Source of the DNA: a virus | Length of the DNA stretch: 35,541 bases | Strand: one strand, 5' to 3' | Virus record (IMG/VR): IMGVR_UViG_3300032116_000683 | Coordinates: 1 to 35,541 of that record | In this document: piece after piece, positions 12,978 through 31,156 of the stretch | Position numbering within the stretch: the first letter of the stretch is position 1 | Layout of the letters: the number at the start of each line of letters is the position of its first letter | The notes under the pieces: generated by a model | Seen by the model: the letters and a program-made list of their open reading frames with translations, nothing else | Told to the model about the DNA's origin: nothing | Databases searched by the model: none | Position numbers and translations under genes: made by a program

Positions 12978-14147
12978 TTATTTTACAGCCATTTTAACAA
13001 TTTCAGGATCCATCATCAGCTTAGTAAACTTGGTTTTGTTGCCATTAATTACATTCTTGATGATGTGATATTTAATGTCATTAGTAAATACATCAGACGT
13101 TACAATATTCTTTACGCGCTCTAGAATCTTATCTGTTATTGCCTCTGTATTACTATAGTTAACAGTATAATTAATGAGGCGAGTAGCTAGAACACTTGCA
13201 ATGTCAGCACGATATCCAGGACCTGTACCGATTGTTTCATACAACTCAGACTTTACAGTATCCCAATTTTGATTCAGGAGAATCTGATTAGGAGAAATCA
13301 TCTTGTCAAGTCTATTGTTGATGAACATGGTAAACATTGTACCGAATGTATCTCCTACAGAACCTTCTGCAATAAACTGAATCATTGGAAGATTTTTCTC
13401 AAAAGAATCAAAGCTGCTAATAGAGTTAAAGAATGTAGTAATACTACGAGCATTGGTTTCTTTGTTTACCAACTCTGGATTTAGCAGTAAGAAATTGATA
13501 CAACGAGTATCTAGGTTTGCAGACTCTGCCCATTTAGCCCAGCAATCAATATCAAACTTAAGATTAGCTGTAATGAAACGAGTCTTTTGTGCAACGTCAA
13601 TAGATGTTACATTGTAATCACCATTGTCAGGATTCGTAGTCAAGATAATGTGCCAGTCTTTTGGAAGCTTCCATGAAATATATTCTTGACGGTCAATCAA
13701 ATCCATACAAGCCTGTAGGAATCTAGAATCAGCACGAGTATAGTCATCTAAGATAAGAATACCACCCTCACCTTTGCCTTGAATCCATTCTGGTGCAGCA
13801 TGAGTCATTCTCTTTTCACCTGTTGGAATATACTTGTTCTGGATATACAAAGGCAAAGTATTCTCAGGAACCCATTTAGTTACATCATCTTTCTTAATCT
13901 CAAATTCCTTCATTGGAAAACCGGTCAAGTCACCGATCTCTTCTATCTGTGCAAGATTTAACTTTACAACATGCAGACCTAGTTCTTTACCTATTTCTAG
14001 AATAGTACTTGTCTTACCGATACCTGCTTCACCCTCTACAGCAACAGCTACTGGAATCTTTCCATTCTGCTGAAGATATCTATTATTAGATACAATATGA
14101 TTAATAAAACCCTTAAGTTCTGAAGTATTTAAATTTACTTGTGCCAT
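12978..14147 (-). CDS. MoxR-type AAA+ ATPase
   Basis: Walker A is GEAGIGKT (39-46), Walker B is GGILILDDYTRAD (128-140) and sensor 1 is TTNPDNGDYNV (170-180). The DDYTRAD version of Walker B replaces the usual DE of MoxR proteins with DD, a variant that keeps metal binding but may change hydrolysis. MoxR ATPases typically work with a VWA-domain protein to remodel or insert metals into targets, and the next gene downstream upstream-partner (14149-15351) encodes exactly such a protein, one base away. The target in this phage is unknown. Confidence 0.9.
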   Translation of the reverse strand: MAQVNLNTSELKGFINHIVSNNRYLQQNGKIPVAVAVEGEAGIGKTSTILEIGKELGLHVVKLNLAQIEEIGDLTGFPMKEFEIKKDDVTKWVPENTLPLYIQNKYIPTGEKRMTHAAPEWIQGKGEGGILILDDYTRADSRFLQACMDLIDRQEYISWKLPKDWHIILTTNPDNGDYNVTSIDVAQKTRFITANLKFDIDCWAKWAESANLDTRCINFLLLNPELVNKETNARSITTFFNSISSFDSFEKNLPMIQFIAEGSVGDTFGTMFTMFINNRLDKMISPNQILLNQNWDTVKSELYETIGTGPGYRADIASVLATRLINYTVNYSNTEAITDKILERVKNIVTSDVFTNDIKYHIIKNVINGNKTKFTKLMMDPEIVKMAVK

Positions 14148-14148
14148 C

Positions 14149-15351
14149 TTAATTCAATTTAATTTGTGGTCCTTTTAATGATTTATTTATGCTACCTCTG
14201 GTTGATATAACCCAAAGCATTTTACCTTTTACATTTATGTCTGTATCACACTCACCATCAGTAAGATAGATAAGGCATGTATATTTTCCAACGTTTGCAT
14301 TATAATACTCTAGAACAGGATCAAAACTAGTACCGCCTCTGCCGTGAATAACTAGTTCTTGTCCTTTTTTATAGTCTCCAATATAACTGATAGACGTATC
14401 ACATTGAATTACTGTGATATCACTACCTGTACGATTGATATGATCTATCTCATGAAAGAATTCCTTTAATTCTTTTTCTGAAACAGAACCACTAGTATCA
14501 ATAGCTACAAGTACATGTCGTTTCTGTTTAATCTTAAGACCTGGATTTTCCTCAAACCTTTTATTGAACTTACGTCTTAGCTTTTTAGTAAAGACTTTTT
14601 GAGAACCACCGGCAAATCTTCTTAGATATCCCTTCCAATCAAATTTCGATGGTTCTTTTATATTAAGTCTTCCTAGAATATTCTTAAGTTCTCCAGGTAT
14701 AACACCTCTAGATTTCTCTATTTGGTCTTGGATCTCAGATAAGATATGTTCTGTTTGCTTTTCAATTAGTTTCTTTTCTGCATCACTGAGATTTTCAAAT
14801 TCACCCCATGATTCGTGATTAGGTATTAAGTCTCCCATTTTTGTATGGGATTCTCCAGAACCTTGATCATCAATCATTTGCTGAATTCTTTGACTAGATT
14901 CGCTATCAGGATTATTATCAAGTTCATCCTTGATAAGGTCATAATAGATATGCCAGCCAGCTTTTTCAGGAAGATTTAATTGTACAAATGGATCCGTTTT
15001 GATTGTGCATCCACCATCTGGTAAGTTAATACCATCAATGTATTGATTAATCTCTAGGTCCATTGCAATGTTAGAAAGCTTCTTGTCATAGCCAAGATTC
15101 TCAGAACAAATGTGAAAGAATGCAATATGCAACAGCTCATGCTTTAATAGTCCCAACTTATGGGGATCAGAAAGAGACCCCCAAAAGTCAGGATTAACCA
15201 CGAGCTGATAATTTATATTATTCTTAGAGACACCTGCAGTAGGTACTCTATCAGACCATATCTTATTCAAACTAATTAGAAATAAACCATAGAATGGTTC
15301 TTTCAGCATTAGTTCTTTACTGGTCTTTGCTAGTGAATCTTGATGATTCAT
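14149..15351 (-). CDS. VWA-domain protein with DUF2201-type metallopeptidase-like N-terminal domain
   Basis: The N-terminal domain has HELLH (71-75) followed by NIAMDLEINQYI (93-104), the two conserved blocks of the putative metallopeptidase domain DUF2201. The C-terminal VWA domain has a full MIDAS: DTSGSVS (284-290), GGTSFDP (338-344) and TDGECD (363-368). A low-complexity charged linker joins them. Start 15351 is preferred over the internal ATG at 15309 because the first helix of the domain (KTSKELMLKEPF) begins before 15309. It overlaps the 148-aa gene by 35 bases and is followed one base later by the MoxR ATPase, its expected partner. Confidence 0.9.
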   Translation of the reverse strand: MNHQDSLAKTSKELMLKEPFYGLFLISLNKIWSDRVPTAGVSKNNINYQLVVNPDFWGSLSDPHKLGLLKHELLHIAFFHICSENLGYDKKLSNIAMDLEINQYIDGINLPDGGCTIKTDPFVQLNLPEKAGWHIYYDLIKDELDNNPDSESSQRIQQMIDDQGSGESHTKMGDLIPNHESWGEFENLSDAEKKLIEKQTEHILSEIQDQIEKSRGVIPGELKNILGRLNIKEPSKFDWKGYLRRFAGGSQKVFTKKLRRKFNKRFEENPGLKIKQKRHVLVAIDTSGSVSEKELKEFFHEIDHINRTGSDITVIQCDTSISYIGDYKKGQELVIHGRGGTSFDPVLEYYNANVGKYTCLIYLTDGECDTDINVKGKMLWVISTRGSINKSLKGPQIKLN

Positions 15352-24120: not shown

Positions 24121-24984
24121 TTAAAAAATGTATCTAATTGTATTCCAAGGGATTATCAAATCGTGCAACATTTTAAACTGATAGATATAATCATTTTTTA
24201 GGTCGTGCTTGTACCTAATATTCCTACCCCCATATTCGGATACTTTATCTTCCTGAATATCTGGTCTCCATAATAGTTCTTCACCAGGTATACCATGATC
24301 CAGGTTATACTTATGCTTATCAGCATTATGGGTAAGGAAGATTACCTCTGCTTTTACTTTGTGCTTGGTAGTAACATACTTATCCACTAGCTGAAATAGT
24401 GCTGCATACTCTTGTTCCCATCCTTCTGTTACGATTACAGGACTGAAGTTTATGTGTACATCCCAACCAGCTGCTAAGAACTCATCAATAGCAATAATTC
24501 TATCTAATATCTTGCTAGTCCCTGGCTCTAATAAATCAGCATATTTCTGGGGCATGAGGCTAAATCGTATCCTCATAGAATTAGCAGGATCATAATCTAG
24601 CAATTTGCGGTTTACATATTTAGTAGCAAATGAACCAAATGCTTTTCCATGAGTCTTAAAAAACCTAACTATCTTATCAAAGTCATAATACTTATGATGA
24701 AGTGCTAGGTCTTCATTACAACCTATATCATAAGTTACATAATGCTTATGAGTCTGATTAGGTTTATCTACATCTGCAAACCAAGAGTGATGATCAATGG
24801 CAGTAAGAACATCATGTATATTCTTAGCTACTGTTAGACCTTCTGGCTTATGTCTTTTCATGTAGCAATATGAACAATTAAAGCCTATACAACCATACCC
24901 AAAACTGGGTGCAATGAAGTCAGTAGATCTACCCGAAGGTCTGATCTGCATAGACTTCCGGGTAACTAATTTTACTTTACTCAT
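24121..24984 (-). CDS. Radical-SAM protein of the spore-photoproduct-lyase-like type
   Basis: The segment SFGYGCIGFNCSYCYMKRHK holds C32, C37 and C40, the cysteines for a 4Fe-4S cluster, but spaced CX4CX2C instead of the canonical CX3CX2C. Further on are SMRIRFSLMPQK and AAGWDVHINFSPVIVTEGWE, typical of SPL-like proteins found in phages. SPL repairs UV-induced thymine dimers in spores; phage relatives are of unknown activity. The flanking ung gene suggests a DNA-repair theme, but this is inferred. The start is coupled to the preceding gene by ATGA. Confidence 0.82.
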   Translation of the reverse strand: MSKVKLVTRKSMQIRPSGRSTDFIAPSFGYGCIGFNCSYCYMKRHKPEGLTVAKNIHDVLTAIDHHSWFADVDKPNQTHKHYVTYDIGCNEDLALHHKYYDFDKIVRFFKTHGKAFGSFATKYVNRKLLDYDPANSMRIRFSLMPQKYADLLEPGTSKILDRIIAIDEFLAAGWDVHINFSPVIVTEGWEQEYAALFQLVDKYVTTKHKVKAEVIFLTHNADKHKYNLDHGIPGEELLWRPDIQEDKVSEYGGRNIRYKHDLKNDYIYQFKMLHDLIIPWNTIRYIF

Positions 24985-27927: not shown

Positions 27928-28318
27928 AATCTTTTGTATAGCCCCAAAGGACCATAACACAAGATATGAAATAAACAGATGTTAGGGATAACCAAATGTC
28001 AAATTCGATATATCCATAACGGCGATGGTCTAGAATGGCATTGATGATAGTAACAATCCAACAACCTGCTGCAATCACATAGTATATAGGACCATTACGA
28101 AAATCATACTTCATGTACTGCAGTATCTTTACTGTGTTGTCCATGAATCTATTCATCTCATAGTCTAGTGCCCATACCATTACTAGAGCAAGGTTTATCA
28201 GTAGGCCGAAGTAAAACAGGTATTCTGTTACCATTCCACCTATCAGGGCAAATCCTGTAGATAAGCATAGATATAAAATACCGTTACTAAAGGATGATTT
28301 AGTTATTACTGGCTTCAT
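27911..28318 (-). CDS. Membrane protein with four predicted helices, 135 aa
   Basis: ATG 28318 joins the stop of the GroES-like gene as TAATG (the longer frame starts with TTG). Hydrophobic helices: GILYLCLSTGFALIGGMV, LFYFGLLINLALVMVWAL, YYVIAAGCWIVTIINAIL and LTSVYFISCVMVLWGY. The loop between helices 2 and 3 is charged. No family recognised. Confidence 0.8.
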   Translation of the reverse strand: MKPVITKSSFSNGILYLCLSTGFALIGGMVTEYLFYFGLLINLALVMVWALDYEMNRFMDNTVKILQYMKYDFRNGPIYYVIAAGCWIVTIINAILDHRRYGYIEFDIWLSLTSVYFISCVMVLWGYTKDYGKLK

Positions 28319-28596
28319 TACCAAACAATTGCAACGTTATTCTCGTAGGCAATAAAATACATAGTGCCATCGATATCAATTACCTCACAGTTAGCTAATG
28401 CTGTACCGATATATACCTGATCTCCTGTCTTTACAGAAGTGCATTCATCACCAGTAGCTACTACATTAAGCTTACTCCATGATTTCATGAACTCTGCTTC
28501 AAGGTTTGCCTGAACATCTTCTGTAAGGATTACCTGACTTTCAGGTCTTACGGGCTTTTCAATAAGGATTCTCTTTCCTTTTAATTTAAGATTCAT
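28318..28596 (-). CDS. GroES/Cpn10-like co-chaperonin
   Basis: The 92-aa protein starts with LKLKGKRILIEKP, the first strand of Cpn10, continues into an acidic mobile-loop region (VILTEDVQANLEAEF), and then shows VVATGDECTSVKTGDQVYIG and a last strand YFIAYENNVAIVW, like the VxxVGxG...VKVGDxVLF pattern. Phages such as T4 encode a GroES-like cap (gp31) to fold capsid protein with host GroEL. The fit is by eye; the mobile loop is not the usual IML tripeptide, so a divergent member is most likely. Confidence 0.72.
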   Translation of the reverse strand: MNLKLKGKRILIEKPVRPESQVILTEDVQANLEAEFMKSWSKLNVVATGDECTSVKTGDQVYIGTALANCEVIDIDGTMYFIAYENNVAIVW

Positions 28597-28798: not shown

Positions 28799-29001
28799 GC
28801 GCCGTCATCTGAATAGTAATCAGAATATTCCTCGCTAAAACATTTAGTACAGATAATAGATGTAGTTAGCAAATCAAAGTAGATGCTATCTACCATGTTT
28901 TCATCATCTTCTAATCTAGCTAATTCTTGCGCACATTTGTAGATAGCATCTTTATCACAATATCTACATAGGCCAGTGCAGTTGTCTTCAGGATCTAGCA
29001 T
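28795..29001 (-). CDS. Putative zinc-ribbon small protein, 68 aa
   Basis: Cysteines in the order CTGLCRYC (8, 12, 15), C27 and, 29 residues on, CTKC (57, 60) would supply a zinc site or two. The rest is acidic. No family recognised. It overlaps both neighbours. Confidence 0.7.
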   Translation of the reverse strand: MLDPEDNCTGLCRYCDKDAIYKCAQELARLEDDENMVDSIYFDLLTTSIICTKCFSEEYSDYYSDDGA

Positions 29002-29395
29002 TATTCTTTTCTTTTAAATATTTTCTATACCAATTATATACTGATTCGAAAGGTACACCCATGATAATTGGGAATACTATGAATGCAACAAATATACTCA
29101 GTAGGAGCCTTGGGGTTATTGCTAAACCAATTGCAAGAAATAAACAACGCTGCATAAAGAACTGATTCATATGCCAACGATCAGTCAAGAATACAAGTAT
29201 TGTAGAACTAAATGGAAACTTTTCTGGAAACATAGGTTTGATTAAACCGAGGTACCACCAATGACATTTGTATTCTTTTGTGAAATCATACTTACGATGC
29301 CAATCAAATGTTTTCATTTCTTCATCAGCAAGAGCATCCATTTTACCTTTGAATACTCCTGCTGCAACAATTAGTAATAGTATTAGTGCAGTCAT
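28988..29395 (-). CDS. Membrane protein, 135 aa
   Basis: Begins with a hydrophobic helix (ALILLLIVAAGVF), then a soluble loop KGKMDALADEEMKTFDWHRK, a FPFSSTILVFLTDRWH segment and a C-terminal hydrophobic helix pair (RCLFLAIGLAITPRLLLS, then IFVAFIVFPIIMG). The order of blocks is one I remember from membrane proteins of Bacteroidota phages. The last 30 bases overlap the zinc-ribbon gene. Function unknown. Confidence 0.8.
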   Translation of the reverse strand: MTALILLLIVAAGVFKGKMDALADEEMKTFDWHRKYDFTKEYKCHWWYLGLIKPMFPEKFPFSSTILVFLTDRWHMNQFFMQRCLFLAIGLAITPRLLLSIFVAFIVFPIIMGVPFESVYNWYRKYLKEKNNARS

Positions 29396-29431: not shown

Positions 29432-29704
29432 CTACAGTTGTATCTCTGTAGTTAAATCATTGGCAGCCAGTTGGTTATTGATACTAACCAACTCATCTAT
29501 ACTACCGTGCTTAACTGCGTACTTACCTTTAGAATGTACTAGCTGTGCACATTGTTCTGCCTGAATAAGATTATGATTACAGAAAGCCATTAGGCACAAT
29601 ATAACGTGCTCAAATGAATTGTGATTGTCATTGTATAATACAATCCTAGGTTGTGATTCTACATCTTCAAGTAATTCTTCAACGTGTTCTACTTGTGTAT
29701 TCAT
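29432..29704 (-). CDS. clpS: ClpS-like N-degron adaptor
   Basis: The 90-aa protein has PRIVLYNDNHNSFEHV (19-34), in which N25-D26 correspond to the Asn-Asp that bind the free amino terminus of N-degron substrates, and LVHSKGKYAVK (55-65), with H57 matching the third substrate-contacting residue. The helix CNHNLIQAEQC between them is as in Bacteroidota ClpS. ClpS delivers proteins with destabilising N-terminal residues to the ClpAP protease. A phage copy could steer host proteolysis. It is coupled by ATGA to the SF2 helicase. Confidence 0.88.
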   Translation of the reverse strand: MNTQVEHVEELLEDVESQPRIVLYNDNHNSFEHVILCLMAFCNHNLIQAEQCAQLVHSKGKYAVKHGSIDELVSINNQLAANDLTTEIQL

Positions 29705-30822
29705 GCTGTAAATTTTGAACTTTTAGATACCCACATTACTTTAGATGGATCATAGTCCTCAAGTGCTGACTTGACCCATGTTTCGTCTACGGTATTTCTA
29801 TAGCATAGGATATGAATCTTCCCTGTCTCGTCTGGATTTAATCTAAGCAAACGACCTAGTCTTTGTGATGACTTACGCTCATTACCATATGAATGCATGA
29901 TTATACCCTGTTTTAAATCTGGTATATTAACACCTTCATTTAATTGTAGGACACATGCAAGTTTAAATATATCTCCAGATTTAAATTTTTCAAGGTTAGA
30001 CTCAGAACTTCTGTTGCCACTGAAATAAGAATAACTGCACAGTCTACTAGCTTGGTCTTTTGTATTAGCAAATAGGATTACTTTATCATTGATATAATTC
30101 AGTAACTCCTTGGCATACACCTCTTTACTAGGATAAGACATCAGTCCCTTCATTCTAAGGATACGCTTCATTTGTAATTCTCTCTGACTATTAGCACCAT
30201 CTATTGCTCTGCACCAATAGTTGTAATCATCTAACTCTGATGTATAATAACCTCCAGTCTTGGTCTTCTTGAAATAGTTTTTGCGAGTATCTAAATCTAG
30301 AACATGTACGTATATTATGTAATCGTTTAAGATACCATCACTGACCGCATCATCTACCATATAGGTAAACTTAATGGGACAATGCTTTGCTACCATCTCA
30401 CCTTTCTCAGATGATGCTATCTTAGGGGGTGTACCTGTTACACCAACGATACAACCTTTATAGTTAGATAGAACAGTATCATGCTTACGTAAAAGGTTAT
30501 GACACTCGTCAAGAATAATCAAATCATAATTACTCAGGTTCTTCTTATATAAGGAAAGATAAGTCCCGTAGGAAATGTCAAGATTAGAATCCTCATATCC
30601 ATGTTTAACTATCTCGTCCTTCCAGGATCTATGTATAGATACCTTCGGTGCAACAACCAAAGTCTTTAATGGAATAACTCTAGCACTTGATAGGTAATTA
30701 ATATACTCTAGGCATATCTTAGTTTTACCCACACCCATACTGATTCCCAAACCAACACGTGAATTTGCAGATAAACCTTTTAATATTTTAATAGCTTCCG
30801 CCTGTATATCATCCCTTGTCAT
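29701..30822 (-). CDS. SF2 DEAD/DECH-box helicase
   Basis: I choose ATG 30822 (MTRDDIQAEAIKIL, 373 aa) because the longer frame from 30906 adds a non-helicase sequence and overlaps the preceding gene by almost 100 bases. Motifs in order: Walker A SMGVGKT (28-34), DECH (105-108), TGTPP (129-133), and SQRLGRLLRLNPD near the C terminus as motif VI. This fits SNF2/UvrB-like SF2 ATPases of phages, possibly in recombination or replication restart. Confidence 0.9.
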   Translation of the reverse strand: MTRDDIQAEAIKILKGLSANSRVGLGISMGVGKTKICLEYINYLSSARVIPLKTLVVAPKVSIHRSWKDEIVKHGYEDSNLDISYGTYLSLYKKNLSNYDLIILDECHNLLRKHDTVLSNYKGCIVGVTGTPPKIASSEKGEMVAKHCPIKFTYMVDDAVSDGILNDYIIYVHVLDLDTRKNYFKKTKTGGYYTSELDDYNYWCRAIDGANSQRELQMKRILRMKGLMSYPSKEVYAKELLNYINDKVILFANTKDQASRLCSYSYFSGNRSSESNLEKFKSGDIFKLACVLQLNEGVNIPDLKQGIIMHSYGNERKSSQRLGRLLRLNPDETGKIHILCYRNTVDETWVKSALEDYDPSKVMWVSKSSKFTA

Positions 30823-31156
30823 TTGCTTTTGCCTTATAATAAATTTTATTAGGATAACCTTCTGGAAAATATAACTGCAACAAGTCACAGATATATATCT
30901 CACCATAATACGAATCGTACCTACCTGCCTCCATCTCCTCGTTATGAATCTTCTCTAGATTTTTAGCATCACTCATATGATACTTACTTACCTCAAAAGA
31001 TATTTCAGTTGTACTTATTCCTACCTCCTCCTCTACTAGACTCTCTAGACTTGATGGTAACTGGAGATCTTTTGAATCTCCTCTCCATGTAGGTTCATGC
31101 AGGTACCAATGTTTGGTACCATTCTCATCTTCGTATTTCTTAAATCTAATAATCAT
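30809..31156 (-). CDS. Hypothetical protein, 115 aa
   Basis: ATG 31156 (MIIRFKKYEDENG) overlaps the previous stop as ATGA; the six-base longer frame uses TTG. Mixed alpha/beta, with LVEEEVGISTTEISFEVSKY and a late LLQLYFPEGYPN. No family recognised. Its end overlaps the helicase start by 14 bases. Confidence 0.78.
   Translation of the reverse strand: MIIRFKKYEDENGTKHWYLHEPTWRGDSKDLQLPSSLESLVEEEVGISTTEISFEVSKYHMSDAKNLEKIHNEEMEAGRYDSYYGEIYICDLLQLYFPEGYPNKIYYKAKANDKG

Follow-up and report, generated by a model that had tools for sequence, protein, structure and literature searches.

The window, the whole stretch of DNA analysed here, is a 35.5-kb fragment (35,541 nt) that covers positions 1 to 35,541 of the IMG/VR virus record IMGVR_UViG_3300032116_000683. 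Its minus strand encodes a homolog of ClpS, the small adaptor that hands proteins to the Clp protease if they begin with certain amino acids. Bacteria and plastids are known to use ClpS for recognizing such N-degrons. The gene and its surroundings comprise the following features:

28318-28596, minus strand: gene for a 92-aa GroES-like protein with a weak match to phrog_3188 (E 3.8e-4) and no Pfam match.
28988-29395, minus strand: gene for a 135-aa protein without a family match; next gene downstream of clpS and, in the relative L160, directly after a deletion scar.
29432-29704, minus strand: clpS, 90 aa, ATG start and TAG stop; N-terminal extension (NTE) residues 1-17, ClpS core residues 18-90; pocket residues N25, D26 and H57, with F31 and A53 at the positions of M40 and M62 of Escherichia coli ClpS (from alignment and fold).
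29701-29704, minus strand: ATGA stop/start overlap of the helicase gene and clpS, kept in the relatives L003-L005 and in the divergent loci L007 and L012.
29701-30906, minus strand: SF2 helicase gene (ResIII/Helicase_C; phrog_16), upstream of clpS and ending in the ATGA overlap.

The identity of the 90-aa protein as ClpS is near certain. It matches the Pfam family ClpS (PF02617) with an E-value of 1.4e-13 and a score of 50.9 bits (cut-off 23), and its AlphaFold2 model (mean pLDDT 89) aligns with solved ClpS structures at Z 12.5-14.9, the top match having an rmsd of 1.2 over 74 residues. Nearly all of the best PDB matches of this model are ClpS proteins; an L7/L12 domain, which has an unrelated fold, follows at about Z 10. 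With the NCBIfam equivalogs PRK13019 and PRK00033 the protein reaches 26.5 bits and stays below the cut-off of 117. The cellular ClpS of a flavobacterial metagenome-assembled genome (MAG; L010) also fails this cut-off with 37.7 bits, indicating that these models miss this type of Bacteroidota ClpS, and the protein was not assigned to them. Comparison with three relatives of 90% identity gave a dN/dS of 0.05-0.07, pointing to purifying selection and thus to a selected gene; together with the fold, this rules out a chance or decayed open reading frame. The preliminary description of this DNA as encoding a phage-borne ClpS is therefore borne out by the Pfam match, the fold and the viral nature of the record, among whose proteins are matches to DNA polymerase and helicase families of phages.

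The first ATG of the helicase gene is at 30906, but translation probably starts at the ATG at 30822, which gives a protein of 373 aa like those of L003-L005. The ATGA coupling of helicase and clpS had been described as unusual. The overlap exists, but overlaps of this 4-base type are found in 10 of the 51 adjacent minus-strand gene pairs of the window, so that it was discarded as an unusual signal. Conservation of the gene order was followed in a helicase-alignment scan, from which the 80 best-scoring loci, a non-random sample, were taken; 75 of these are viral and include 3 kb or more of downstream sequence. ClpS is encoded within 7 kb downstream of the helicase in 42 of these 75 loci, mostly directly behind it. 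The exact 4-base overlap recurs in L007 and L012, whose ClpS proteins are only about 46% identical to that of the window. The order of helicase and ClpS is thus conserved over a wide viral group, for which a general synteny of the block may be the explanation.

Further genes of the window include a spore photoproduct lyase-like gene at 24121-24984 on the minus strand (Pfam SPL, E 8e-21), while the hosts are presumably non-sporulating; an extra partial copy is present in L004, and no match was found in L160. The region 12978-15351, also on the minus strand, encodes a putative 389-aa MoxR-like ATPase (P-loop recognized by eye, no Pfam match) adjoining a DUF2201 metallopeptidase/VWA-like protein.

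A natural deletion of clpS was found in L160, which has a helicase with 95% identity and the same gene order but does not encode ClpS. All that is left of clpS is a scar of its last ~27 nt, located between the helicase and the following gene (L160:7524-7650; GATTTAACTAGAAGAGTACAACTATAA, compared to GATTTAACTACAGAGATACAACTGTAG in the window). Accordingly, at least one close relative can do without clpS, as would be expected of an accessory gene whose value depends on the host, and its loss there indicates that its benefit is conditional. Such a deletable gene might also be recently acquired host DNA that has no role for the phage. This reading is largely refuted and very improbable, because clpS evolves under the purifying selection described above, because the helicase-ClpS order is kept between viruses with strongly diverged ClpS proteins, and because a single scan revealed 361 viral contigs encoding ClpS.

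The clpS region is syntenic with L002-L005 across all or nearly all of its length. L005 lies on a 123.7-kb syntenic relative (G001), which encodes a major head protein (capsid), terminase, portal and other structural proteins. Distant relatives of its capsid protein occur in crAss-like phages, in Cellulophaga phages and in Leptolyngbya phage Lbo-JY46. A search for named phages with near DNA matches to the window found none; the named relatives of its helicase are almost all phages of Flavobacterium, Cellulophaga and Bacteroides. The best inference from the helicase relatives, the capsid relatives, which include gut crAss-like phages, and the type of ClpS is that the host probably belongs to the Bacteroidota. 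The relationship of the capsid to the cyanobacterium-labelled phage Lbo-JY46 keeps this assignment from being certain.

Among sampled Bacteroidia genomes, 126 of 149 encode ClpS themselves, which indicates that the hosts have an N-degron pathway. The preliminary description had named ClpA, within ClpAP, as the partner of the phage protein. This part probably does not hold, since none of 40 sampled Bacteroidia genomes encodes a protein above the ClpA family cut-off, which is passed by three control genomes. A flavobacterial MAG that is related to the phage by its ClpS encodes a Clp_N protein with a UVR-like middle region as in ClpC. Given these two observations, and assuming a Bacteroidia host, the partner of the phage ClpS is likely to be ClpC rather than ClpA. 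A comparable pairing is known from Mycobacterium tuberculosis, in which ClpS acts with ClpC1 (PMC6274998).

The substrate pocket of the window ClpS is conserved. In an alignment with ClpS from E. coli K-12 (taken from NC_000913), N25, D26 and H57 coincide with N34, D35 and H66, the residues contacting the α-amino group, as the preliminary description had proposed. This Asn/Asp/His triad is identical in the window protein, in E. coli and in all of 94 distinct bacterial ClpS, nearly all from Bacteroidia. M40 and M62 of E. coli are replaced by F31 and A53, respectively, both of which are nonpolar. Since Bacteroidia ClpS have Phe throughout at the M40 position and usually Ala, Thr or Ser (once Val) at the M62 position, the pocket is of the host type. 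The N-terminal segment, whose loss would have spoken against an adaptor, is also present: the NTE comprises 17 residues before the core compared to 26 in E. coli, and the 24 residues preceding the pocket Asn equal the minimum among bacterial ClpS. At the positions of E. coli E79 and K84, considered with regard to docking on the N-domain of ClpA or ClpC, the window protein has Ser and Val, a point against an adaptor role that is tempered by the variation of both positions among Bacteroidia ClpS. E. coli ClpS uses its NTE to switch ClpAP from SsrA-tagged to N-degron substrates, and delivery is inhibited when entry of the NTE into the pore is blocked (PMC9663308).

The comparison of 84 distinct viral with the 94 distinct bacterial ClpS revealed two kinds of viral protein. 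The length of the segment preceding the pocket Asn has a bimodal distribution: 66 of the 84 viral proteins have at least 24 residues there, as do all 94 bacterial ones, and the remaining 18 have only 12-13, leaving about 5 residues before the core. This short form is absent from the bacterial set (Fisher p 5e-7, with sequences counted as independent despite their relatedness). No room for a longer reading frame starting with ATG, GTG or TTG was found for these proteins, which form a single clade with a support of 100/99 (L194, L196-L200, L209, L210, L212, L217, L219, L222, L228, L230, L237, L239-L241). They are located downstream of the same helicase, that is at the same genomic site as clpS in the window, they still match the Pfam family ClpS (eight of eight tested), and they share a conserved C-terminal tail of the type YES-N-L-H/Y. 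In 11 of the 18 the pocket His is replaced by Asp, for which the tree requires two label changes that are forced by well-supported branches. A separate viral lineage (L007:5980-6249, L012:3980-4249 and L039) has retained the NTE and carries Asn instead of the pocket His. The L012 contig, which is filed under a Campylobacteraceae MAG and is syntenic with the viral L007, is probably a misbinned phage contig. In a tree of viral and bacterial ClpS, which are short proteins and give weak support, the viral ones fall into several groups among the bacterial ones, and a single origin from one host lineage was not recovered.

Considering the effect of blocked NTE entry in E. coli, the core-only proteins are not expected to hand over cargo by the established mechanism. 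By this analogy, a classical role in delivery is unlikely for them, and they may instead block ClpC or differ in specificity. It is conceivable, though rather doubtful, that ClpS has evolved in two ways at the helicase site, with complete adaptors on the one hand and, on the other, a core-only clade through which viruses inhibit host ClpC or change its specificity. The loss of the gene, or the lack of its delivery parts, in relatives at the same spot points to more than one use of ClpS by phages. The apparent inability of the sister clade to deliver suggests that phages can keep a ClpS without productive adaptor function, and the main rival explanation for the window protein starts from this point. 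It holds that the phage ClpS acts as a competitor or brake, which occupies ClpC, displaces host ClpS or other substrates and shields phage proteins, N-degron delivery being secondary. The core without NTE at the same site, the absence of the pocket His from most members of the clade and the inhibited delivery in E. coli agree with such a role. The window ClpS, however, is of the complete kind and keeps both NTE and His under purifying selection, although a pure blocker would need neither. A competitor role is considered unlikely.

Other parts of the Clp system are encoded by some of the phages carrying ClpS. Among 17 large viral records with ClpS, five also encode ClpP (L151, L152, L153, L154 and L155), none of which belongs to the lineage of the window; in the three ClpP proteins examined, the motifs with the active-site Ser, His and Asp look intact by eye. 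In the ClpP-carrying lineage, ClpS can adjoin a terminase gene and one for a HAD-like protein (L052). Matches to AAA_2 occur in 2 of the 17 records, in proteins of about 400 aa; the one from L156 was rejected as a ClpA/C protein, as it looks MoxR-like and has a VWA-type neighbour. Neither a ClpP (PF00574) nor an AAA_2 match was found in G001 and G002, which speaks against a phage-encoded Clp partner in the window's own lineage. It would be the host unfoldase that works with phage ClpS, in some phages together with phage ClpP. The neighbouring GroES-like gene, which belongs to the same cluster and lies about 1 kb from clpS, and the ClpP genes of other ClpS phages could also indicate a general support of proteostasis, in which ClpS contributes to sustained folding and turnover and has no specific target. 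For phage Atu_ph07, which carries several Clp proteins, a relief of stress was proposed by the authors (PMC6102473). As the GroES match is weak and lacks Pfam support, and as ClpP was not found in G001, the nearest long relative of the window, this explanation is improbable for the window ClpS.

Altogether, the most likely explanation, which we regard as somewhat probable, is that the window ClpS is a functional N-degron adaptor that productively serves the host Clp protease. During infection, the phage protein would bind proteins with a bulky hydrophobic first residue via N25, D26 and H57, as suggested by the conserved residues and the fold. It would then attach to the unfoldase of its host, expected from the gene content of Bacteroidota to be ClpC. 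By analogy to the mechanism of ClpAPS in E. coli, the NTE would enter the pore of ClpC and the cargo would be handed over to ClpCP. The additional phage copy would raise the ratio of ClpS to ClpC, so that N-degron substrates would be favoured and others, such as SsrA-tagged proteins, would be degraded less.

The window ClpS resembles the bacterial ClpS (PF02617) of Bacteroidia in the Asn/Asp/His pocket, the Phe at the M40 position, the NTE and the fold, and it is 49-51% identical to the ClpS of flavobacterial MAGs (L010 and L011) over nearly the whole protein. In contrast to these, it is encoded by a phage beside a phage helicase, and its NTE has a length near the lower limit of the bacterial range. 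With E. coli ClpS (3O2B, 2W9R) it shares the fold and the N34/D35/H66 pocket, but identity amounts to only about 20-23%, M40 and M62 are replaced by Phe and Ala, E79 and K84 are not kept, the tandem prolines at the NTE-core junction (Pro24-Pro25 in E. coli; PMC9663308) are missing, and the expected partner is ClpC instead of ClpA.

ClpS from phages has been annotated before, in Agrobacterium phage Atu_ph07 in 2018 (PMC6102473) and in jumbo phages in 2021 (PMC7824862), and the gene of the window adds to these known cases. Delivery of targets to host ClpAP has already been proposed for phage ClpS (PMC7824862, PMC6102473); the literature searched contains annotation-level statements only and describes no experiments on a phage ClpS, and a natural clpS deletion, a core-only clade or a setting with ClpC instead of ClpA was not found in it. 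Matches in BFVD include the ClpS of Atu_ph07, Klebsiella phage RaK2 and other jumbo phages. In structure alignments, those of Atu_ph07 and RaK2 share no more than 17-18% identity with the window protein, and both phages infect Proteobacteria, whereas the window phage belongs to a group of probable Bacteroidota phages with crAss-like capsid relatives. This group offers a natural comparison between a complete ClpS in the window, a clean deletion in L160 and core-only ClpS with changed pockets in sister phages, which would test whether phages feed or jam the Clp protease of their hosts.
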